Source of the DNA: Pyrenophora tritici-repentis
Lineage: Eukaryota; Ascomycota; Dothideomycetes; Pleosporales; Pleosporaceae
Assembly: GCF_003171515.1 (NCBI RefSeq)
Contig: NC_089390.1
Coordinates: 4,340,001 to 4,404,000, forward strand
Length of the DNA stretch: 64,000 nucleotides
Direction: 5' to 3'
The translations under genes and the position numbers were made by a program. Under the pieces are notes generated by a model. It saw only the letters and a list, made by a program, of their open reading frames with translations, was not told where the DNA came from and did not search any database. Of the stretch, positions 3,471 through 48,261 are shown piece after piece (position 1 is the first letter of the stretch; the number at the start of each line of letters is the position of its first letter).

Positions 3471-3480
3471 CTCCCCCTCA
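3471..3480 (-). other. Copia polypurine tract
   Basis: On the element strand TGAGGGGGAG directly abuts the 3' LTR, the expected place for plus-strand priming. Confidence 0.75.
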
Positions 3481-4586
3481 GGGCAGGTCCGGTCCAAGGA
3501 CAACTCCTAATTGGTTCTTGAATCTCTCGAATGCGACTCGCTGCAATGGCTTTGTCATTCCATCAGCCACCATGTCTGCAGTTGGAACGTAGGCCACATC
3601 GAGTTTGCCTTGTTCTGCTAGGTCTCGGATAAAATGATAACAGACGTCGATGTGCTTTGATCTTTCGTGAAGGTGAGGGTTCTTTGTAAGTGCAATGGCA
3701 CCCTGGTTGTCTCCTAGCATCTGGACCTTGTTGGTGTCTTTTCCAATGTACTTTGGGAACCCAAGATCTCTAAACATTTGAGCAATCCACTGGCCTTGCT
3801 TGCAGCATGTTGATAGTGCGATGTATTCAGATTCGCAGCTTGACGTTGCAACAGACCGTTGCTTCTTGCTAGACCATGATATTGGACCTCCGTAGAACAT
3901 TGCAGTGCTCCCTGAAACGCTCTTTCGGTCTACCATGTCGCTTGCCCAGTCAGCATCAGAGTAGATGACAAATTGCGAGTGTACTCCCCCTGGTCCGTAG
4001 CGTAGCTTCAATGTCACTGTCGACCTTAGATATCGTAGCAGGTTCTTCAACGCATGGCCATGGTGTTCTGCTGGATCGCTCATGTATTGGCTTAGCTTTC
4101 CGAGGGTGAATGCAATGTCTGGACGTGTAAGAACCATAGCAAACATAAGGCTCCCTATCACTTGCTGGTATTCAGTGATGTCGATTCGGGTGTCGTTGTC
4201 AGTGGCTGGCCTAAATGAAGTGTAATCTGCAGATGGAATCTTCTTGTCTCTGTGTTGTTTGCTAGACATTCCAAACTTGTCAAGTACTGCGTGTAGGTAC
4301 TGCTCTTGATCGAGGTAGATTGTGCGGCGCTTTCTGTCTCGCGTAACTCGTACTCCAAGGATCTTATGAATCTCCCCCAGGTTCTTGGTGTTGAATCTTC
4401 CAGAAAGCTTCTCGTAGAACCAATCAATTTGAGCTCGATCTTTTGCAGCAGCAGCAATGTCATCAACGTAGACGAGGATACGGAGTTGTTTTTCTTTGTG
4501 GATAAACATGCACGGGTCTGCGAGGCTTTGTACGAATCCCCATGCCAGAAGTTCTTTCTTTATCAACAAGTTCCAGTCGCGAGCAG

Positions 4587-4714
4587 CAGACTCCGCAACA
4601 ATCAATCGGATCGGCATGATTGATTCCTATCTAGGTTAAAGGCTGCCTAATGAAGTAATTCTTTAACCTATATAGGAATCAATCATGTCAATCGATTGAT
4701 TGTTGCGGAGTCTG
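4587..4714. mobile_element. 128-bp hAT-type MITE inside copia RT
   Basis: Nearly the whole element is an inverted repeat. Both ends read CAGACTCCGCAACAATCAAT inward, and the arms continue for about 54 bp with few mismatches around a spacer of about 20 bp. It is flanked by a perfect 8-bp duplication GCGAGCAG (4579-4586 and 4715-4722). Eight-bp duplications with CAG-type ends are the mark of hAT superfamily transposition. It has no coding capacity. Its ends differ from those of the hAT elements at 10.6 and 59.5 kb beyond the CAG, so another transposase probably moved it. Confidence 0.9.
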
Positions 4715-5523
4715 GCGAGCAGCCTGTTTGAGTCCGTATAAGCTGCGGAGAACTCTAAGGACGTATCCTTTTTTGACTTCTACTCCTTGGGGTTGCTTAA
4801 GAAAGATCTCTTCCTTCAAGTGCGACTCTGTGAATGCATTCTTAATGTCAAAGTGGAAACATTCCAGGTTTTCCGCTGCGACAGTGGCCATAAACAGACG
4901 TAAGGTGTCCATGCGGACTGTCGGGGCAAAAGTCTCGTTGTAGTCTGTTCCGTGTGCTTGCGTAAAACCTCTTGCCACAAGGCGTGCCTTAAACCTCTCA
5001 ACAGTCCCGTCGAGATTCGTTTTGACTGTAAAAACCCACTTTGAATCAACCATGTTCGCGTCTTTTGGCTTTGGAACTTCCTCCCAGGTTCGATTCTCTA
5101 TTAACGCGATTATCTCTTCAAGTATTGCTGCTTTCCATTGCTTTCCATACTTTGGGTCGTTGATAGCTTGCTCGTGTGTCTGGGGGATCTGGATTCCTGC
5201 GATCTCGGTTGCTGCGAAAGCCTTCTCAGATAGTCGTGTTTGCTCTTCTGTAAGGCCAACTTGGGCTAGCATAGCTTTAACGATCTTGCTAAATCTCTCG
5301 TCCTCAACAATCTCTTCGTTAGACCTCTTCCGTTTGGCTTGTCTAGTGAAGTATCGTGGAATCTCCTTTTCTCGTACAGACTGGGTACACGGTTCTTCGG
5401 GCCCCTCTTCGTTCACAAGATTAGGAACCCGCTCATCAGATGGTGCAGTAGGAGGAATAGTAGTTAGCCTCCTTGGTCTTCCTCTGTGACGCTTCACTGG
5501 TTCATGAGTTAGCTCTGCCGAAG

Positions 5524-5670
5524 ATGGTTCCATTAGGTTCTCGGAAACTGGTTCTATTGGTTCTGCAGGAGATGGTTCCATTGGTTCGGTAGGAGATGGT
5601 TCCATTGGTTCTGCAGGAGATGGTTCCATTCGTTCGGTAGGAGTTGGTTCCATTCGTTCGGCAGGAGATA
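5524..5670 (-). repeat. 24-bp tandem repeat in copia Pol linker
   Basis: About five to six 24-bp units encode eight-residue repeats of the form MEPSPAEP in the linker between integrase and RT. They stay in frame, so repeat number can vary without breaking the protein. Confidence 0.8.
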
Positions 5671-8229
5671 ATTCTAGATCCTTCCTAGGTCTTCCTCTTG
5701 GTTTTCGGTCTGGCATCGTATTCTGCGTTCCTTGTGGTCCAGCTGGTATGTTTCGCAGTCGTAGTTCAACTTTCCCTCCAGGGGTGTATTCGTCCACTGA
5801 CAATCGGCTTGTCCTTGAGGTGTATCCAAGCTCTGGCGAATAGAACTTGAACTGCTTATTTGTTGTCTCAGAATATCCCATAAATACTCCAATTCTGCCA
5901 CGGTCCACGAGCTTGTCATGTCGTTGGTCTGCTGGAATCGTTTTAGGGTTGATGTACGAATAGCATTTGCTCCCCCATACACGGATGTGGTCAATGGATG
6001 GTTTCGTTCCTGTGAATGCCTCTTCAGGACTGACTTGCTTTCCATTGATCATAGGTCCTGTGTTTGTACGGTTGCGTAGGTATGCGTCTGCTTCGACAGC
6101 TTCATCCCAAAACTCAATTGGTAAACCAGCGTCTTTCAACATTGCTCTCATATCAGCTTCAGCAGTTTGGATGTTTCGCTCGGCTGGTCCATTCTGGTGT
6201 GAGGAAGCAATTGTTGTAGGCTGAATTTCCACGCCTTGTGTAACTCTCCATTCCTCAGCTTGCTGTAGAAGTTCTGGTGCATTGTCGGTTCCAGCAGCTT
6301 TGACTTTCTCGCCAGTTTGATGTTCTACAAAGGTCTTCCAGATTCGGAGTTCCCGTTGTGCGTCTCCCTTTTTCTTCAGCGGGATAACCCAGTTTTTCCG
6401 CGTGTAGCTATCAATAATTTGGAGGAACCACCTGTTTCCTCGTAGAGATGTTGGAAAGGGTCCAGCAATGTCAAACTGTACTAAGGCTAGCTTCGTGGCC
6501 TTGTGCTCTCTTAGCTGCTTAGGGATGCTGTTCTTCATCTTTGTCAGGGAACACACTTCGCAGATTTCAATCTTCTCTGGAACTTGAATCTTCTTCTGGA
6601 GAGTTGTAACTTCGTGGAGTTTGGCAATCTTTGTAGGTCCTAGGTGTGCGAAACGTCTGTGATACAGCAGGTATCTCTCCTTTTCATTAACCTTAAGCTC
6701 GCTCTTAACTGGTGTATGGGGTTCCGTGCCTAGGAATGCTGTCTCGTGGTATCCATCGGCAATGTGTGACACTACGTAGAGGCCGTCGTCCATAGTTGCT
6801 TTAATAATGATCTCCTTTCCTAGTTTGAAGCATAGTACGTGTGAATTGAAACGACCCTTCAGGCCTGCTGCGCAAATTCTTCTCCCTGATAACAAATTGA
6901 CTCCAAGGTTAGGTACAAGCAGTACTTCTGACAACCATGTCGACGATCCGTCTTTACACACCACTTGAGCTTCTCCTTTCCAGTCTGCATATAATTCTCC
7001 CCCTCCAACCCGAACTAGTCTTCGCTTGATCTTGATCATTCGTCTAAACAATGAGGGTTGGTCAGACATGTGGGAGGAGGCGCCAGTGTCGGCAGCCCAA
7101 GTAGATGGAGAGGCCTTACCGACAATGTCTTTTGAGAGACGGCATGTCTCAATTTCCTCGGGTTCAGAGTCTGAGGTCTCGGATAATTCATCTGACTCTG
7201 AATTGACTTCTTCGGCTCCATATGCTTTGCCAGTCTTTTTGTGAGAATTCCTTTGCTTGAGTGTCTTAATAGGCGGCTTAGATGATTTCTTAGCGTCGTA
7301 TTCCTTAAGGAGCTTTCGAGCTCTCTCACGTCTTGGACAGTCTCGTACGCCATGGGCTCCGTCACAAAGGAAGCATTGGACCATAAACTTAGTACCAGAT
7401 TCGGAGTCAGACGATAGTGGTGAGCTCTTGTGATTTCGGCGCTTGTAAGGCGGAACATACTTCTCCGTCTTCCGGAATGCTGGGAGAGCTTTTTCGTCGG
7501 CGTCTTGCTGGTCTCGAACCTCCTTCTCTTCCAGAAACTTAAGTTTCTGTTCAACCGTAAGGTTAAGTTGGGCGTTTAAGGTGTCAATCGTAGTCTTAAA
7601 TTCTTTCGGGAGTGATCTAATAAGAACGAGTAGTAGTGCAGAGTCCTTGTAAGCTCCGTTGGTGTCAGCGTCTGCTGCTACGAGTTTGCGTCGGTATTCC
7701 TTTAGCTTTTCCCATGATCCAACAATTGTGTTCCCAGGATTGAATGTGAACGTTTGAATTCTGGTCATGTAAATGTTGGCGGTTGTGGCGTCAGTTTGGG
7801 TGTACTTCTTTTGTAGGTAGGCCCAGAACTGGAAGGCAGTGTCGTATTCGTCAATAAGGGCTTGGTCATCTTCAGTAAGCGACCGAAACAAGAGATCGAT
7901 TGCAGTGGCTTCATCTTCTAGGTACTTGTCTCTTTTTTCAATGTTGACGCGGATCTTAGTATGCTTGTCTGCTTCAGCAATTTCCAACTCTTCCATAGCC
8001 TCCGTTAGTTCACCGGCTATTGCTATTTGGCAGTGCTGTACCAGGTTTTTCTCGCAGACATAGAAGACTTTCTTCCCCTTAAGCTTGACCTTGTTTCGGC
8101 GGAACCAAGTATCGTGGTTTTCAGCTGTAAGTTGGGGAATCTTCCATTCTTCCTTCTCTACAGCCATCTTGTGTGTTTTGAGTTGGTGAGACTATTATGC
8201 GAGCAAGGTACGTGGTATGATGCTAAGAG

Positions 8230-20822: not shown

Positions 20823-23800
20823 ATGATGGCCCGACTAAACGAGACGAGCAAGGATGCCCACGACCAGGGTGCTCAGAACGACACACAAACCATTCCAGCA
20901 GAGTCGCACCTTGAGTACGGCGACTTTGAGAATGACGACGACCTCACCGAAGCGGAGAAGGCGACTATTAGACAGAAGCTCGCCACCCGCAAGAGACAGG
21001 TCACTTTTGGCCGTGGAGACGGCCAAGGCAACAGCGAGGACGAGGGCAATGACGTCAACGCCGCTGAACGCCGACGACAGTCTTGTAGACAGTCTCTTAA
21101 GAAAGCCGTTAAGCCAGCGGATAAGACTTCTATAGAACTAGGCTACGACGACGACACGGATGACATGTATCTACGTTTTTATGGCATCCACGACAACGAT
21201 GAGCGCGAGATCCTCGCGGACATGAGGAACGTTGACGACTTCACCGCTTGCATCGCTGAACATGCTGAGAGTGTCTTTGGACACCTAGCAGATTTGCTTA
21301 GTCAGATAGCTGAACAAGCCGAACAGCTAGACCAAGCACATAATGAAGCCCGTGTACAACAAGAAGCAGCTGACGCCCGCGTGGAGCGCGCCCAGACGCA
21401 AGCTCGCGCTGCCGCCGCAGACGAGCTTGCCCAAGTCACCCAGAAATGCAACCGCATGATCACTACTAAGAACAGCTACGCTTCACGGCTAGCAGTGCTC
21501 GAAGACGAGCTTGCAGCCTCGCGCGAGTCAAACGTGAAGCTCTACTCCCAGATTAGCGACCTCTACAACGAGAGGAGTGTCCTGCAACAGCACGCGGGCG
21601 TCCCGACGAATGGAAATTTATATGACACGCGCCCAGCTCAGTTCCAGTCGTCCCCTCCTCCAATGACTGCGAACCCGTTCATTGGCACTGGCACTCACGA
21701 CTTGATGCTGCCTCCCCCTATGGCACATCATCAGAAAAACCGACCCCTAGCTCGGTCTGCTGTATCGGACAACCTCACTGCAACGGGTGCAAAGCTGAAG
21801 GATATTGACATCTTTCGCGGAGACAGCACCGACAAAGAGGACTACAAGTATTGGCGCCGCAGCGCCAGGAACTTCTTAAACAAAACTACTATCCACACAA
21901 CTGTTCAAGATCAGCTCGACTACCTGATTGACCACTTGCGAGGACCAGCCGCTGCACAGGTGGAATATAGAGCAGCACCCGGAGCTCGTAACGCCTACGT
22001 GACAGCGGAAGAAGTCCTCACGGAACTTGATCGCATCTTTGACACGGTCGACAAGGTCACCGAAGCCAGCGCAGCGCTACACGACAGTGGCTCTGGAGGA
22101 TTAAAGCAACTACGACTTGGCGACGGCAATTTCGCCATGGCGCCTATCACACACGGCGTCCTAGCCCCCATCTCCCACGCTGAACACGTTAGCGAGGAAC
22201 TCTTCTACAGTGTACCTATGACGACTTACGACTTTATTTTCGGCACTTCATGGCTAGAAGAGCATAATCCACACATCGACTGGAGGGAAAAAACTATGCG
22301 TTTCAACAGCGAGCATTGCTACGCCAACTGCCTACACAAAGGCGAGCAAGTCACTGTTCGCAGCAGTCGACACCGACGGGCCGCAGCAAAAGCCAAAGAA
22401 CGGAACCCGACCTACGCGAACATGGACATACACCATGTGTCAGGTGAGGCCGCTGCCGCACTGGCATCACGACCAGAGAACGGTACTATCTGGCTGTACC
22501 CACATGATTTTGAACAACTCGACAAAGATGACAGCGATGACGCCGACGAGAGAGCCCAGGCTAGCCGCGTCTTCGCCTCACTATTTGCCATGGACATGAA
22601 CGCCCTATCTCAGGAAGACATTGATAAGTTCCACCAGAAGCTGAACTCGCCCGCTAAAACTCGCGACGAGGTCCTAGACAAGTTGCCCGAATGGCTCCAC
22701 GATCTCGCCCACCGATTTAATCCTGATCCCGCCACGACAGACTTGCCCGCTCGACGAGGCGCGGTCGACCACAGCATTGACATTATCCCCGGATCAAAAC
22801 ACCCAAACGCTAAGATGTACGGCATAAGTAAGGACGAAGGCCTTGCCGTTAAAGCTTATGTTGAGGACATGAGAGGACGCGGTGAGATCCGTGAAAGCAA
22901 GTCAGACTTCGCTTCGCCTGTGCTCGTCGTCCGCAAATCTGGAGGTGGACTCCGCATTTGCGTGGACTATAGAGCGCTCAATGCCGTCACTATCAAGAAC
23001 AGGAACGCTCCTCCGATGATTAAAGAAACGCTCGCGCGGCTAGCTAACGTCGCCTACTTCACCGTGGTCGACGTCATCGCCGCCTTTAACAAAATCCGCA
23101 TCAAGGAAGGCGACGAACATAAGACTGCCTTCCTAACACGGTATGGCCTATTCGAATACTTAGTGATGCCTTTCGGACTCTGCAACGCACCAGGTACCTT
23201 TCAGGCCTACATTAACGAGGTTTTACGCGATTACCTTGACGAGTTCTGCTCTGCATACCTCGACGACGTCCTAATCTACAGCGCGTCTTTGGCAGAGCAT
23301 AAGGTTCATGTCCGCAAGGTTATCGAGAGTCTAGGTGAGGCCGGACTTCATCTAGACATTGACAAGTCCGAGTTTGCCGTCCAAGAGGTGAGATACCTGG
23401 GCCTCATTCTTACAACTGAAGGCATCAAAATGGACCCCGCCAAGGTTAAGTCAGTGCTCGACTGGGGCACCCCAACAACATTGAAAGAGTTGCAAGCATT
23501 CCTAGGTTTCGCAAATTTCTACCGAAGGTTTATTGTTGCCTTCTCTTATATCGCGCGGCCGCTCACGGATCTTACCCGCGGGACAAACGGCGACGTCAAG
23601 CTGAACTTTCCTATCGCCCAAGGATCTGCTGCCCACGACGCATTCGAAAAGCTTAAGAAAGCATTTACCATCGCCCCGGTCCTCGCGCACTTCAACCCCG
23701 CGCTTGAGACCTGGGTCGAAACAGACTCCTCCGACACCGTCACAGCAGCCGTGCTGTCCCAAGTCCAGACTGACGGAGTGCTAAAACCAGTCGCTTTTAT

Positions 23801-24443
23801 CTCCACAAAGATGTCACCAGCTGAGTGCAACTATGCCATCTACGACAAGGAGCTTATGGCCATCGTCCGCGCCTTTGAGGAATGGAGACCAGAGCTGGCC
23901 GGCACCTCGGACCCGGTGAAGGTCATCTCAGACCATGCCACCTTACAGACCTTTATGGTCAACAAAGCACTCAACAGGCGTCAAGCAAGATGGGCTGAGT
24001 TTCTGAGCGAATTCAACTTTAAGATCACTTACCGACCAGGCAGACTAGGCAGCAAACCCGACGCCTTGACGAGACGCCCCGGCGACACACCCACGAACCC
24101 AAACGATCCACGGATCATACATCAGACCCAGACGATCCTCGGCCCCGACCGCGTCGACGACGTCATCAAACGAGACACGCACACACACAACGACGCCCGA
24201 CAAGCAATTCAACTCGCGGCGCTGTTATTCGAATACGCGGAGGAGGTACAAACGCTAGCAGGCATGCTATATCTAATGAGCGAGGAGGCGTATGGCGTCG
24301 ATGATTTGGTGGATGACGACTCAACCCCAGACGTAGCCTTGGACAGCCAGCCTAAGGGGGAGACAATTGAGATCCCTCACGCTGCTGCGCCAGCTTCCCT
24401 GGCACGGGTGCCGGGGAGAACGCGCCTGACGATGGACTTATGA
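20823..24443 (+). CDS. Gypsy ORF1: Gag, partial protease, RT, RNase H
   Basis: 1,206 aa from ATG 20823. Residues about 155-260 are a coiled coil rich in Ala/Gln/Glu. The Gag capsid domain follows (IFRGDSTDKEDYKYW to RIFDTVDKVTEASAALHD). The sequence then jumps at about 22079-22120 into the C-terminal half of the protease (LRLGDGNFA...ITHGVLAPI, FGTSWLEEHNPHIDW), so the Gag C-terminus, zinc knuckle and complete protease active site are not found. RT is complete: VDYRALNAVT, MPFGLCNAPGTFQ, YLDDVLIYS. RNase H has ETDSSD, YDKELMAI and SDHATLQTF. The frame stays open across the junction, as in a clean in-frame deletion. The stop overlaps the ORF2 start as ATGA. Confidence 0.93.
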   Translation: MMARLNETSKDAHDQGAQNDTQTIPAESHLEYGDFENDDDLTEAEKATIRQKLATRKRQVTFGRGDGQGNSEDEGNDVNAAERRRQSCRQSLKKAVKPADKTSIELGYDDDTDDMYLRFYGIHDNDEREILADMRNVDDFTACIAEHAESVFGHLADLLSQIAEQAEQLDQAHNEARVQQEAADARVERAQTQARAAAADELAQVTQKCNRMITTKNSYASRLAVLEDELAASRESNVKLYSQISDLYNERSVLQQHAGVPTNGNLYDTRPAQFQSSPPPMTANPFIGTGTHDLMLPPPMAHHQKNRPLARSAVSDNLTATGAKLKDIDIFRGDSTDKEDYKYWRRSARNFLNKTTIHTTVQDQLDYLIDHLRGPAAAQVEYRAAPGARNAYVTAEEVLTELDRIFDTVDKVTEASAALHDSGSGGLKQLRLGDGNFAMAPITHGVLAPISHAEHVSEELFYSVPMTTYDFIFGTSWLEEHNPHIDWREKTMRFNSEHCYANCLHKGEQVTVRSSRHRRAAAKAKERNPTYANMDIHHVSGEAAAALASRPENGTIWLYPHDFEQLDKDDSDDADERAQASRVFASLFAMDMNALSQEDIDKFHQKLNSPAKTRDEVLDKLPEWLHDLAHRFNPDPATTDLPARRGAVDHSIDIIPGSKHPNAKMYGISKDEGLAVKAYVEDMRGRGEIRESKSDFASPVLVVRKSGGGLRICVDYRALNAVTIKNRNAPPMIKETLARLANVAYFTVVDVIAAFNKIRIKEGDEHKTAFLTRYGLFEYLVMPFGLCNAPGTFQAYINEVLRDYLDEFCSAYLDDVLIYSASLAEHKVHVRKVIESLGEAGLHLDIDKSEFAVQEVRYLGLILTTEGIKMDPAKVKSVLDWGTPTTLKELQAFLGFANFYRRFIVAFSYIARPLTDLTRGTNGDVKLNFPIAQGSAAHDAFEKLKKAFTIAPVLAHFNPALETWVETDSSDTVTAAVLSQVQTDGVLKPVAFISTKMSPAECNYAIYDKELMAIVRAFEEWRPELAGTSDPVKVISDHATLQTFMVNKALNRRQARWAEFLSEFNFKITYRPGRLGSKPDALTRRPGDTPTNPNDPRIIHQTQTILGPDRVDDVIKRDTHTHNDARQAIQLAALLFEYAEEVQTLAGMLYLMSEEAYGVDDLVDDDSTPDVALDSQPKGETIEIPHAAAPASLARVPGRTRLTMDL

Positions 24444-26206
24444 CAGCGATCGTAAATGCCTACCGCGTCGATCCCACACTACAAGAAATAATACGAGCAA
24501 AGGCAGACGGCGCCCGTCACCTTCCCCACACTGTCGCCATACAAATGAAGCTGAAGCTAGAGCTACAGGACTGCGAAATCCGCAACAGTCTGGTTTACTT
24601 CCGCGGCAGACTCTTCATCCCCTACGACGACGATCTTCGCAAAGACATCGTCCGTCGGTTCCACGACACCGCCACGGCGGGCCACGGCGGCAAGCGCTCT
24701 ACCTACTACCTAGTTAGCCAACAGTACTACTGGCCGCTCATGACAGACACAGTCGCTCAGTATACCCGGAGTTGTGTAGTTTGCCGACGCGCAAAGCCAT
24801 ACAGAGACCGCAAGCAGGGACTGCTGCACCCGCTCCCCGTACCGAAACGATTCTGGACTGACATTTCAGTCGACTTCATCACACCCCTGCCAGACTGTAC
24901 TAGATTCGGACGCACCTACTCTCATGTCATGGTCGTGATTGACCGGCTAAGCAAGTCGCAACGGTTTATCGCCCTAGACAGCCTTGAAGTTGATGCTGTT
25001 GTCCGAGCATTTGTCGATTACGTCTGGAGAGAGGAAGGTTTCCCTACTACAATTGTGTCTGACCGAGGGTCACAGTTCGTCTCTCATTTCTGGAAGGAGC
25101 TGTGTCATCGACTGGGTGTTACACCAAAGCTCTCTACAGCTTACCACCCAGAAACAGACGGCCAGACTGAAGTCGCCAACGCCGGACTAAAGTGTTACCT
25201 GCGTGCTTACACGAACTATATGCAAAACGACTGGGTAGACTGGCTGCCACTAGCCCAGCTCGCCATCAATAACAGAGAAAACGTGTCCTCTGGCGTCGCA
25301 CCCGCGCTTGCCACCAAGGGCTACCTACCTCGCATGGGATCGGAACTAGTCACCGAAGACTCGCCCATTACCGACGCCCGTTCACGCGCAGAACAGTTGC
25401 TCCGCGAAGACGCCCGAGGCACGGTGAAAAGGATGACCGACGTTATCCGTTTCATGCAAGAAAATCTTCGCTGGTCCCAAAACAAGATGGAACACTACGC
25501 CAACCAGCACAGACAGCCCGCTCCAGACTACCGCGTCGGTGACAAAGTCTATATTGATGCCCGCAATATCCCTACGATGCGCCCGAGCCGCGGTCTCAGC
25601 GCAAAGAACCTTGGCCCATACAAAGTGCGAGCTTTGCCCAACCGATATGCAGTCGAGCTCGCACTACCAGACTGCTACAAACAAGTCCATCCAGTGTTCC
25701 ACCCATGGTTACTACACCTGGACGCCGATCAAACAGCTCGCCCAAGTGAGGGCGTCATCGCTGAGAAACACCCTGACGGAGAGCACGACTACTACGTAGA
25801 CATGGTCGTCGACTGTCGCATAGATAAACGACGCAAGGACACCCTCACAAACAAGAAAGGCATGCTCCAGTATAAGGTTAAGTACACCAACTCCCCAGAC
25901 TGGAATGCCTCGCCCGCATGGCAAGACTATACAGACCTGTGGGGCGCAGAGGAAGCGGTTGAAGACTTTCACCGTCTCTATCCCGACAAGCCCCCACCTC
26001 ACGAACTGTATCGAGACCTAGCGTTGTATCTCAACCTAGTCGCCGCATATTCACTTGGTCGCGATGATGTTGAAGTTGTTAGCGTACTAGACAGTTGTGA
26101 GCTTGCCCTATCACCTTCGCATTCACTGATGGCACAGCTTGGACCTGGGAAGGTGGCACAACTCAGGACGTCTGTCTCCAAGCAGAAGCAAGGACCCGAA
26201 GGATGA
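24440..26206 (+). CDS. Gypsy ORF2: integrase with C-terminal chromodomain
   Basis: 588 aa. The zinc head HHCC is RRFHDTATAGHGGK...CVVCRRAK. The DDE core is VDFITPLPDC, VSDRGSQFVSHFW and STAYHPETDGQTEVAN. A GPY-type segment (KNLGPYKVRALPNRYAVEL) follows. A chromodomain-like block comes at about 455-525 (VDCRIDKRR...LQYKVKYTNSP...DYTDLW...FHRLYPDKP), expected to target integration to particular chromatin. Its ATG overlaps the ORF1 stop by four bases (ATGA) in the -1 frame. It could be made by termination-reinitiation or frameshifting, or the split could be a lesion. In most Ty3 elements integrase is continuous with RT. Confidence 0.93.
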   Translation: MTAIVNAYRVDPTLQEIIRAKADGARHLPHTVAIQMKLKLELQDCEIRNSLVYFRGRLFIPYDDDLRKDIVRRFHDTATAGHGGKRSTYYLVSQQYYWPLMTDTVAQYTRSCVVCRRAKPYRDRKQGLLHPLPVPKRFWTDISVDFITPLPDCTRFGRTYSHVMVVIDRLSKSQRFIALDSLEVDAVVRAFVDYVWREEGFPTTIVSDRGSQFVSHFWKELCHRLGVTPKLSTAYHPETDGQTEVANAGLKCYLRAYTNYMQNDWVDWLPLAQLAINNRENVSSGVAPALATKGYLPRMGSELVTEDSPITDARSRAEQLLREDARGTVKRMTDVIRFMQENLRWSQNKMEHYANQHRQPAPDYRVGDKVYIDARNIPTMRPSRGLSAKNLGPYKVRALPNRYAVELALPDCYKQVHPVFHPWLLHLDADQTARPSEGVIAEKHPDGEHDYYVDMVVDCRIDKRRKDTLTNKKGMLQYKVKYTNSPDWNASPAWQDYTDLWGAEEAVEDFHRLYPDKPPPHELYRDLALYLNLVAAYSLGRDDVEVVSVLDSCELALSPSHSLMAQLGPGKVAQLRTSVSKQKQGPEG

Positions 26207-38287: not shown

Positions 38288-39973
38288 TTAGGGCAATTGT
38301 ATAGCTTTTTGAGCGTCGCGGAGGCTCTTTTGAAGGTCTCTTTCAGCTTTCTCTGCAGCCTTCTGCTTTCTGTTCTCATCCCAGATCCTCTCCCGCTCAA
38401 TACGGTTCGCCCGTTGTAGTTGAAGCTTGCAAAGGCGAGCTGCCTTGTTAGCCTCGGCTTGCTCAGCTTTTTGAAGCTTTTCAAGCTCTTGTTGTTGTTG
38501 TTGTGATGCCCGACGATCGCGAGCTCGTTGTACACTCCTGGGCGACCAGACTTTTGCTCCCCCATGGTAAACCTCGTCCTCATCAAGCTGGAGGGTGAAG
38601 GACTGCTTTGGTCGCCTCTCCTTGATGGCTAGGGACCGCCTGAGGCCCCTAACCTCACCGCAGAGGAGTGTATTTTGAGCTGCAATGTGGTGCAAACTTT
38701 GTTGAAGCTTCTTGACGTCCTTGCTGCCCTGATCCTTCACCTCACGGCGTACAATTGACTTGAGCTTGAGCCAATCCTCCCCGGAGAGTACTGACTGGCT
38801 GCTGTCAGAATCTGAAGCCTCCTTGGCAAACTTCTTGAGTACAGCGTCTGGGTTGGCTGGGTGTATACCGGTGGCTTCAAAAGACCTCTTGATGAGTGGA
38901 GGTTTGAATACAGAGGTCCAGGAGCTCCAGAAGAGTGGGAAGAAGTCTCCTTTGGTCAAATTGAGCAACCCTTGACTGTCCTGAAGGTATCTAGCCAACT
39001 CAGTTGAGTAAGCGTTCGAGAGGGGTTTAAACATAACAACGTCAAGGGGTTGAAGCGTATGGGTAGCGTGAGGGGGAAATACAAACAAGAGGATCTTGTT
39101 GTCGTGGCAATACTCAATAAACTCCATGGTTACATGGGATCCGTGGCCGTCAAGGAGTAGTAATCGATACCCGGTCGAAGCGTGTCGTCTGGTCTCTCTT
39201 TCAAACACCCCCTTGAGCCAAGCTAACCTAATATCGTTGTTGCTCCAGCCGGAGGGAGATGAGGTTACAAAGACTGAGTGCTCCCCTGCTTGTATAGCTT
39301 CAACCCAGCTTGATTGAACAGCTCCGTTGGCTCCCTGGAAGATGAGTGTAGGACTCAGAGGTTTGCCATCAGAACAAATACAAGCCATTACTGTTATCCA
39401 TTCGCTGGAGCCGTCTTCAAGTGCTTGCCTTACCCCTTTTTGCTCCCAGAGTCTCTTGTCAAATATACGCTTTGTTCTCCCAACTCGGCCAAGTTGAAAG
39501 CCCTTCTCGTCCATATTAAATATATGGATCGGCTGTATATCATACTCCTCCATCTTTTCAAGGAGAAGCTTGAAATATAAGTTATACTTGGCTCCGGAAT
39601 CAGCTTTAGTCCGTTCCTTAGTCATGCCTTTGCTATAGCGAGAGATAAGATGGTCGGGATGCCGGTGGATGAACCGGGTAACCCAGCTTTTGGAGACCGG
39701 TTTGCCAGCCAGCTCACCGGCAAACTGCTGTATCATTGTCCTTGTAGGTGGCAAACGTCGCTCATTAAGCGTTTTGATATATCGTACAAGCTCGGCTTCG
39801 TGTTCTGGGTGGAGGACTTGATGCGCAACGTTGCGGGGTCTTGTTAGGCCTTGATGCCGTCGAACGAGCGTACTGCGCTCAACACCGTACTTGGCAGCAA
39901 CTTTGTTGTACGAGAAATCATCTCCTGGCTCGCGCGATTCTATTTCTTTAATCGCTTCTTGAATCGGATCCAT
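38288..39973 (-). CDS. Pogo-family transposase B, intact
   Basis: 561 aa, single frame, ATG 39973. The N-terminal psq/CENP-B-like DNA-binding region (NKVAAKYGVERSTLVRRHQG and a second HTH to about 115) is followed by the DDE_1 core: FNMDEKGF, LLLLDGHGSH and HTLQPLDVVMF give the acidic triad. A C-terminal basic coiled coil (about 480-555, Gln/Lys/Glu-rich) follows. The protein cuts at TA and re-inserts its element. All motifs are intact, but the element lacks one terminal repeat at its inner end (about 37988). Only a substrate with good ends, such as the composite, should be mobilised. Confidence 0.93.
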   Translation of the reverse strand: MDPIQEAIKEIESREPGDDFSYNKVAAKYGVERSTLVRRHQGLTRPRNVAHQVLHPEHEAELVRYIKTLNERRLPPTRTMIQQFAGELAGKPVSKSWVTRFIHRHPDHLISRYSKGMTKERTKADSGAKYNLYFKLLLEKMEEYDIQPIHIFNMDEKGFQLGRVGRTKRIFDKRLWEQKGVRQALEDGSSEWITVMACICSDGKPLSPTLIFQGANGAVQSSWVEAIQAGEHSVFVTSSPSGWSNNDIRLAWLKGVFERETRRHASTGYRLLLLDGHGSHVTMEFIEYCHDNKILLFVFPPHATHTLQPLDVVMFKPLSNAYSTELARYLQDSQGLLNLTKGDFFPLFWSSWTSVFKPPLIKRSFEATGIHPANPDAVLKKFAKEASDSDSSQSVLSGEDWLKLKSIVRREVKDQGSKDVKKLQQSLHHIAAQNTLLCGEVRGLRRSLAIKERRPKQSFTLQLDEDEVYHGGAKVWSPRSVQRARDRRASQQQQQELEKLQKAEQAEANKAARLCKLQLQRANRIERERIWDENRKQKAAEKAERDLQKSLRDAQKAIQLP

Positions 39974-40179
39974 ATTGGTGGAGTTGTGGCGCGTTGAAGT
40001 TGTGTTGTTGATGGGGTGGGGTGGGGCGTTACGCGAACCTGTGCATTACGCGCACCGGCACTGTAACCACCTTTACCGTAGAAGCAGTGTGCGGACATTG
40101 TTAATTTCCGATCTAGAAAACAGCCCGAACACCAAATCACCAAGTACATATTCTCCAAATCTTGCCAATTTTCCGTCAA

Positions 40180-40309
40180 GCATCGGTGGTTTAGTGGTAA
40201 AATTAGCCGTTGCCATCCACAGTTTCGGCTAGCCCCGGGTTCGGTAAGTTTACTTGAAACCAGTCTTCGATTATCCGCTCTAACATCTCTTAGATTCCCG
40301 GCCGATGCA
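40180..40309 (+). tRNA. tRNA-Gly (GCC) with a T-loop GT-AG insertion
   Basis: The acceptor stem GCATCGG pairs fully with CCGATGC (40302-40308), with discriminator A 40309. The D-arm is GTTTAGTGGTAAAAT. The anticodon stem AGCCG/CGGCT pairs perfectly, and the loop TTGCCA...T is split by a 9-nt intron at the canonical 37/38 site (40216-40224). The T-stem CCGGG/CCCGG is perfect, but the T-loop TTCG|ATT is split by exactly 50 bp (40244-40293) that begins GTAAGT, contains CTCTAAC and ends TTAG, like a fungal spliceosomal intron. A T6 terminator follows at 40321. The internal B box is thereby interrupted. Folding is perfect once both insertions are removed; expression is uncertain. Confidence 0.85.
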
Positions 40310-41076
40310 CAGTATCTTCCTTTTTTGCCTGTTTGGGGCTGCAAAATCTTCCTCTTTTTGCCTTTTTGGGTGTTCTCATTTTTTGGAAGGGGCTGTGAAC
40401 GCTAATCTCGACGCGTGTAAGACCGAGACTACCAGGGAAGTGTGTTGGTTGGCAGGTATAACGAAGCGGCCGAGCATCGGAGGCACAAGGAGGGAGGAGG
40501 AAGGTTAGAGATGCGTGTCGTATACATGACCGGGTGAATGCCATTTTTATATAAAATGATGCAACTGAGGCTCTTTCTGTAGCGAGATTTGAAGTTTATG
40601 GGATAAGGCCTCATTCGACGAGTGGTGATGGACAAGATTCACGGGCATACTCCAGCAAGAATCGGTTCTTGGCCGATAGCCGATCGTCGTATACGCGTGT
40701 CGAATCAATCCTTCGCACAGTGACATGTCAACAATAGTCTTCAACTTAACAACAATATTAGTACTAGAGTTTACTCAAGTACTACTATGTAGCTTTTGAT
40801 AGTACCTACCTAGGCAGTGTTACCGAAAGACTACCCAGGTAGGGAGAGTGAATTTCTTACACTGCGCTCAATTTTACCTCAACCGCAACACCTTGAGCAT
40901 GGTGGAACGCACGGTCTCCGTATGCACAAGCGGTTATTAGAACAAATCAAAATCATCTACAAGCCAGAACGTCCGGACTTTAGTGGAGAGGTGTATATAA
41001 AGAGGCTCATTGCCTTTCCTTTTCGTTATCATAAACACCATCATCCACATACAAAACCTACTTATCAATCTTCGCT
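40310..41076. other. Intergenic, promoter of the small secreted protein
   Basis: Contains the tRNA terminator and the TATA element of the next gene; no other gene seen. Confidence 0.5.
40993..41000 (+). promoter_or_regulatory. TATA box of the small secreted protein gene
   Basis: TATATAAA lies 77 bp before the ATG at 41077, a normal distance for a strongly regulated fungal gene with a short leader. Confidence 0.55.
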
Positions 41077-48168: not shown

Positions 48169-48261
48169 GGTCGCTTAGCTCAGTTGGTTAGAGCGTGGTG
48201 CTAATACAAATTGCCTTTGTGTGATACGCCAAGGTCGCGAGTTCGACCCTCGTAGTGACCA
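48169..48261 (+). tRNA. tRNA-Ile (AAT) with a 19-nt canonical intron
   Basis: The acceptor GGTCGCT/AGTGACC pairs with one G-U. The A box is TAGCTCAGTTGG and the T-arm contains GAGTTCGACCCTC. The anticodon stem TGGTG/CGCCA encloses CTAATA...A with anticodon AAT. A 19-nt intron (48207-48225) sits between positions 37 and 38, the normal eukaryotic site. A T7 terminator follows at about 48266. It is a useful normal comparison for the odd tRNA-Gly. Confidence 0.95.

Follow-up and report, generated by a model that had tools for sequence, protein, structure and literature searches.

Can one nuclear tRNA gene depend on two splicing systems? According to the textbooks, introns of nuclear tRNAs are removed by the tRNA endonuclease and spliceosomal introns belong to Pol II transcripts, the U6 RNA of some fungi excepted. 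The question is raised by a locus within a window of 64,000 nt (the whole stretch of DNA that was analysed) from Pyrenophora tritici-repentis, the cause of wheat tan spot. An earlier note, made from the letters of this DNA, had described a tRNA-Gly(GCC) gene interrupted by 9 nt at the canonical 37/38 site and by 50 nt in the T-loop, and had considered an introner-like insertion, maturation of one tRNA by two splicing systems and a recently killed tRNA. Our analysis favours the second of these. We put at about 0.88 the probability that the 50-nt piece, one of a family, is a genuine U2-type GT-AG intron and that the tRNA-Gly(GCC) gene around it works and is transcribed by Pol III; this value refers to the core claim that spliceosomal introns are removed from live Pol III tRNA transcripts.

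The gene is located on the forward strand at 40180–40309 and consists of three exons and two introns. Its A box (TGGTTTAGTGG), placed according to tRNA position from position 8 onwards, occupies 40187–40197. The first intron (TCCACAGTT, 9 nt, 40216–40224) starts one base 3′ of the anticodon and its removal restores a 7-nt loop, i.e., it is a 37/38 tRNA intron, and its exact cut was set according to the 37/38 convention. The second intron, 50 nt at tRNA position 57/58 (40244–40293), cuts the exonic B box into GGTTCG (40238–40243) on the 5′ side and ATTCC (40294–40298) on the other. The unsplit B box, as found in three sister tRNA-Gly(GCC) genes, reads GGTTCGATTCC. All fungal splice signals reported for this piece are in place: the 5′ splice site GTAAGT (40244–40249), the branch-site motif CTAAC (40280–40284) with its presumed branch A at 40283, 10 nt before the intron end, and the 3′ splice site TAG (40291–40293). 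An intronic B-box core, TTCGA (40266–40270), lies 9 nt ahead of the branch motif. The terminator noted before is present as well, as a Pol III terminator-like run of six T (40321–40326) that starts 12 nt past the gene.

Unspliced, the gene had no match in ARAGORN and Rfam; the Rfam search of 40100–40400 (E ≤1) returned zero matches, as expected for an unspliced tRNA, and the predicted fold had no tRNA shape (z −1.36). Once the 50 nt were cut out, ARAGORN called tRNA-Gly(gcc) with a 9-nt loop intron, i(38,9), which confirms the proposed gene structure to the base. The spliced 71-mer was predicted to fold into acceptor, anticodon and T stems (−29.2 kcal/mol); a D-arm was absent from this fold. 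Other elements of the window include a transposase ORF with DDE_1 and Tc5 DNA-binding domains (38288–39973, reverse strand), which starts some 200 bases before the tRNA gene, retrotransposon ORFs of the Copia-like and gypsy-like types (3478–8167, 20823–26206) and, at 48169–48261, what reads as an ordinary tRNA-Ile with a 37/38 intron, for which ARAGORN gave the anticodon aata. The ORC2 protein encoded in the window agrees with that of P. tritici-repentis (100% in one comparison, 99.8% over 580 residues in another), which identifies the source as this species or a strain very close to it.

A search of the genome (40.9 Mb, 41 contigs) with the window gene as a 191-nt query yielded 12 matches in seven tRNA loci. 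Six tRNA-Gly(GCC) genes were found, all with a 37/38 intron (8–37 nt according to ARAGORN). Three of them carry a GT-AG piece at the identical T-loop site and three do not. Since these three sisters have the same exons and an unbroken T-loop, the intron boundaries are fixed, and the assembly error at 40244–40293 that the earlier note had allowed for is unlikely.

Altogether, we read 15 interrupted nuclear tRNA genes for seven isoacceptors, containing 19 GT-AG introns with lengths of 50–59 nt. Fourteen of these introns are in the T-loop (54/55, 55/56 or 57/58), three at position 8/9 and two at 34/35. Position 57/58 is interrupted in three Gly(GCC) genes, two Glu(CTC) genes, Asp(GTC) and a gene read here as Arg(TCG), position 55/56 in four Arg(ACG) genes, and position 54/55 in two Pro(TGG) genes and Leu(TAG). 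The 8/9 intron, GT..AG between TCCGATAT and GGTCTAGTGG, is present in three of the four tRNA-Glu copies found: one gene has no GT-AG intron, one has the 8/9 intron only and two have both the 8/9 and the 57/58 intron, i.e., none, one or two GT-AG introns on identical exons. In both tRNA-Pro(TGG) genes found, an intron lies within the anticodon itself, at 34/35 (CTGCTTT/GTAAG..TTAG/GGG); for one of them the first base was assumed and the rest read. Individual genes have up to three introns, the one at 37/38 included.

All 14 T-loop introns were recovered with patterns that required part of the splice motifs but not TTCGA, and no motif was required in finding those at 8/9 and 34/35. The split-B-box pattern for 57/58 had 18 matches, seven of them tRNA genes, against two in the reversed control. 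Nine of the 18 belong to one repeat (GGTTCAGTACG..., one copy examined) and two (L026 and L037) showed no tRNA context; these were left out of the intron count. The pattern for 55/56 matched four times, always in tRNA genes (control 0), and that for 54/55 five times (control 1), three times in tRNA genes. The two further 54/55 matches, C8:1749966-1750029 and C9:1196804-1196879, are candidates in addition to the 15 genes; neither contains TTCGA.

A pattern for the Arg(ACG) anticodon arm returned four genes, which are exactly those interrupted at 55/56; the search used an exact pattern, which a diverged copy could escape. The corresponding Pro(TGG) pattern returned two genes, both split at 34/35, and one of the two Arg(TCG) genes is uninterrupted. 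Absence from BLAST results was never used alone, as BLAST missed two known tRNA-Glu genes. Similarly, the Rfam tRNA listing of the genome (62 matches) is incomplete and lacks the ordinary tRNA-Ile of the window. Four more tRNA-Asp(GTC)-like genes (C1:7370488, C3:793314, C4:183711 and C8:133906), also absent from that listing, have a D-arm that starts with CGTATAG instead of AGTATAG; they may contain an intron in the T-loop or near 8/9. At C4:2537064-2537345 (L011), a tRNA-Arg(ACG) and a tRNA-Gly(GCC) gene are only about 15 nt apart, with no run of five or more T between them, and perhaps form one two-tRNA transcript with four introns.

A tRNA-like repeat, GGGGGGATGGCGCAGTGG..., was detected at C1:458516, C1:1888456 and C3:1036597 (L057, L058 and L059) and at 16 further places of equal score; the three copies that were read share a constant 3′ tail. 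It fits the tRNA-Ser-headed SINE of P. tritici-repentis described in a passage of the genome paper of 2013, which gives 129 tRNA genes for this fungus; the passages of that paper on the genome make no mention of GT-AG tRNA introns (PMC3538342).

The 19 introns share their splice signals. All 5′ sites are GT (16 GTAAG, two GTTAG, one GTACG), all introns contain a branch motif (17 CTAAC, two CTAAT) with its A 9–14 nt from the intron end, and all 3′ sites are AG (nine TAG, seven CAG, three AAG). The five introns at 8/9 and 34/35, for whose detection no motif had been required, carry GT, branch motif and AG, too. As a yardstick we used two mRNA introns of the window, one of 56 nt in an amine oxidase gene (GTAAGA..TACTAAC..CAG) and one of 53 nt in an ELP3 gene (GTATGT..CTGAT..TAG); measured against these two, the GT-AG introns of the tRNA genes resemble host mRNA introns in length and signals. 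AAG is a weaker 3′ splice site, and its presence in three of the 19 introns is a point against this view. None of the 19 introns contains TTTT (mean of 3.62 in shuffled introns, probability of zero 0.014), which suits transcription by Pol III; in three of 20 tRNA gene bodies, TTTT occurs elsewhere, outside the GT-AG introns. A genome scan for GTAAG..TTCGA..CTAAC gave 47 matches, 10 of them known tRNA genes, against 81 in the control; hence, this motif alone is no marker of tRNA introns. Within the scan, TTTT was present in none of the 10 tRNA matches and in four of the other 37, which does not separate the two groups and speaks against the TTTT argument.

Are the interrupted genes alive? Insertions could have killed tRNA copies that now persist as pseudogenes. 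This would agree with the T-loop being broken by the insertion and with the existence of uninterrupted sisters for Gly (three of six), Glu (one of four, without GT-AG intron) and Arg(TCG) (one of two), from which exact empty sites can be read. However, all four Arg(ACG) and both Pro(TGG) genes found are interrupted. Fungi need tRNA-Arg(ACG) for reading CGU and CGC, and every gene found for it is interrupted; barring a diverged copy that our searches overlooked, these introns have to be taken out. For the same four genes, decay is unlikely. Furthermore, exon decay and broken stems, the marks of a tRNA pseudogene, were not found: the stems are intact and, the loop intron left aside, all six Gly genes have the same exon sequence, as do all four Arg(ACG) genes and all four Glu genes. 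Such invariant exons contrast with GT-AG introns that are only 0.52–0.72 identical among the interrupted Gly and Arg(ACG) copies. The acceptor stems of the two tRNA-Pro(TGG) genes differ by two-sided changes at the pairs 4-69, 5-68 and 6-67, whose partners are separated by three introns, and such covariation, like the retention of splice motifs in 19 of 19 introns, is at odds with dead genes. ARAGORN missed 14 of the 15 interrupted genes in unspliced form and gave a wrong 5′ end for the fifteenth, whereas with the GT-AG pieces removed it called a tRNA in all 15. The isotype equalled our reading in 10 of them and depended on the placement of the 37/38 intron in the other five; both Arg(TCG) copies were called Glu(ttc). 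A run of at least five T follows within 60 nt in 14 of the 15 genes, the exception being an Arg(ACG) gene that is followed by a Gly gene after about 15 nt. We therefore regard dead genes as very improbable, and a recently killed tRNA does not agree with invariant exons around diverged introns. An assembly artefact or contaminating sequence has a negligible chance: the 15 genes are spread over six large contigs, every intron sequence is different and the exons match those of uninterrupted sisters.

If the genes are alive, the tRNA endonuclease itself might cut the additional introns. Such cuts would be made at a bulge-helix-bulge, in which intron positions 2–5 form a 4-bp central helix with positions 2–5 of the downstream exon. 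Such a route has a model in Cyanidioschyzon merolae, where tRNA introns sit in the D-, anticodon and T-arms according to passages of two papers (PMC3978253, PMC9602550). The central helix, however, was absent in register from all 19 introns and appeared in only one of them when shifted registers were allowed, and nothing known of that pathway requires GTAAG, CTAAC or AG. Consequently, we give ectopic endonuclease introns hardly any weight. What the spliceosomal reading has gained, namely 15 genes, 19 introns, sisters with empty sites, four of four interrupted Arg(ACG) genes and compensatory changes in tRNA-Pro, strongly supports the idea of two splicing systems.

Introns at 54/55, 55/56 and 57/58 all split the Pol III B box, the consensus of which is GGTTCGANNCC. 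The core TTCGA is found inside 12 of the 14 T-loop introns, whereas all five introns at the other two positions, 8/9 and 34/35, lack it (Fisher P 0.0018); in shuffled intron middles the mean was 0.52 and the maximum five in 20,000 trials. Thus, the intron appears to bring along a substitute for the B box that it splits, a point not raised in the earlier note. The distance between TTCGA and CTAAC is 9 nt in seven of the 12 introns, 7 nt in three, and 17 and 19 nt in the two Pro genes. For the 11-base consensus GGTTCRANNCC, most introns did not exceed their shuffles, and its second-best match class (8 of 9) occurs in one 34/35 intron as well; hence, it is the TTCGA core, together with its spacing, on which the promoter claim is based. 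Spliceosomal removal could be true with the A box and upstream elements driving the gene and without the intronic TTCGA being a promoter; the motif would then serve splicing or mirror common descent. The recurrent distance to the branch motif is what descent from one intron would leave, and the two T-loop introns without TTCGA, together with the mostly unremarkable full consensus, fit this option, too. Yet, among the introns read, TTCGA is restricted to those that split the B box, both tRNA-Pro genes keep it despite their other distances, and a GTTCGA lies downstream of three U6-like genes. We consider this non-promoter role of TTCGA possible but doubtful; the doubt concerns the promoter step only and is compatible with the core of our reading, the removal of spliceosomal introns from live Pol III transcripts.

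The three U6-like genes just mentioned (L078, L079 and L081) have no intron, and GTTCGA is found downstream of each RNA end; one of them, L081, has diverged and scores under the family cut-off. The B box may therefore be movable in this genome. With regard to upstream elements, an (A/T)TCAA motif is present at most 60 nt upstream of 15 of 18 tRNA genes examined, the window gene not being among the 15, a count to be read without a control. In the three interrupted Glu genes, the 8/9 intron moves the A box away from the 5′ exon by 50–53 nt, which weighs against our reading. In these genes, (A/T)TCAA lies 10–25 nt ahead of the 5′ exon, so this exon may have kept its start site.

From these features we propose the following maturation pathway. 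TFIIIC would quite probably be held by the A box and the B-box core within the T-loop intron, which would replace the split B box. Pol III would then produce a single pre-tRNA ending at the T-run, and the nuclear spliceosome would remove the GT-AG intron or introns, by which the T-loop would be rebuilt and, in tRNA-Pro(TGG), the anticodon itself. A mature tRNA-Arg(ACG) would carry the joined sequence GGTTCGACC after splicing. Only after the spliceosome would the tRNA endonuclease cut out the 37/38 intron, and tRNA ligase would come next. The endonuclease measures from the folded mature tRNA domain; this reliance on the mature fold, together with two introns only three bases apart in Pro(TGG), suggests the spliceosome-first order. 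Judged from sequence, we have good confidence that a sizeable share of the tRNAs, including every Arg(ACG) gene found, needs the spliceosome to act on Pol III transcripts before the endonuclease, with the T-loop introns as movable promoters and a Pro(TGG) anticodon assembled by the spliceosome.

How could these introns have arisen? Introner-like elements are introns that spread to new sites, protein genes included, as many near-identical copies in Dothideomycetes, the class that includes P. tritici-repentis. The idea of an introner-like insertion finds weak backing in the shared positions across unrelated tRNAs and in the recurrent TTCGA-N9-CTAAC arrangement, both of which suggest that the T-loop introns derive from few gains. 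Near-identical copies are missing, however: the mean pairwise identity of the introns is 0.62 compared with 0.58 for shuffled sequences, so they are not recent introner copies, and the 12 matches of the 191-nt query all fell in tRNA loci. The pattern suggests a small number of gains that moved on from one tRNA gene to another, given their similar T-arms, or by reverse splicing, a route put forward for the U6 intron of S. pombe in a passage of PMC10484740. The introns had no match in viral and genome contig collections, both of which are non-fungal and have no bearing on relatives.

One pre-tRNA seems to need both splicing systems, and translation would then depend directly on the spliceosome; in the case of tRNA-Pro(TGG), if our reading is true, a change in a splice site would alter decoding. 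Such genes offer a natural setting in which to ask if Pol II, a cap or a poly(A) tail is required for splicing, how introns enter non-coding genes and how a split promoter survives. Moreover, the failure of ARAGORN on 14 of 15 unspliced genes implies that tRNA counts in genomes of this kind may be too low.

To our knowledge, there is no precedent for spliceosomal introns as a class of tRNA introns, and among the matches listed for the open-licence literature no paper described such introns for nuclear tRNA genes. Canonical 37/38 introns correspond to 40216–40224 and to the loop introns of the sister genes, and leave the GT-AG introns unaccounted for. The rule that restricts introns of eukaryotic nuclear tRNAs to 37/38, from which the earlier note had started, does not hold in general, as exceptions are described for a red alga (bulge-helix-bulge introns) and a nucleomorph (ectopic introns) in passages of PMC3978253 and PMC9602550. 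According to the same passages, C. merolae resembles the present case in that its nuclear tRNA genes can have as many as three introns, which lie in the D-, anticodon and T-arms and interrupt both A and B boxes. Its introns are of the bulge-helix-bulge type, whereas here GT, branch site and AG are present and no such motif is in register; set against C. merolae as described there, the B-box core is kept within most T-loop introns.

In the fungal 18S rDNA, Rogers et al. reportedly found mRNA-type introns in 1993, likewise in the gene of a structural RNA. There, the transcript is a Pol I rRNA and no internal promoter is split, in contrast to the tRNA genes studied here. The closest parallel comes from Schizosaccharomyces, in whose U6 snRNA gene Tani and Ohshima (in 1989 and 1991) and Frendewey et al. 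(in 1990) are said to have described an mRNA-type intron. This intron, too, is spliceosomal, resides in a Pol III transcript and contains the B-box sequence. A spliceosomal intron bearing a B box in a Pol III gene is, thus, already known from U6; in P. tritici-repentis, the two full-length U6 matches above the cut-off have no intron. In Schizosaccharomyces the host gene is U6, whereas here it is at least 15 tRNA genes for seven isoacceptors, interrupted at five positions (8/9, 34/35, 54/55, 55/56 and 57/58), and, unlike in the case of U6, a second splicing system would act on the same RNA.
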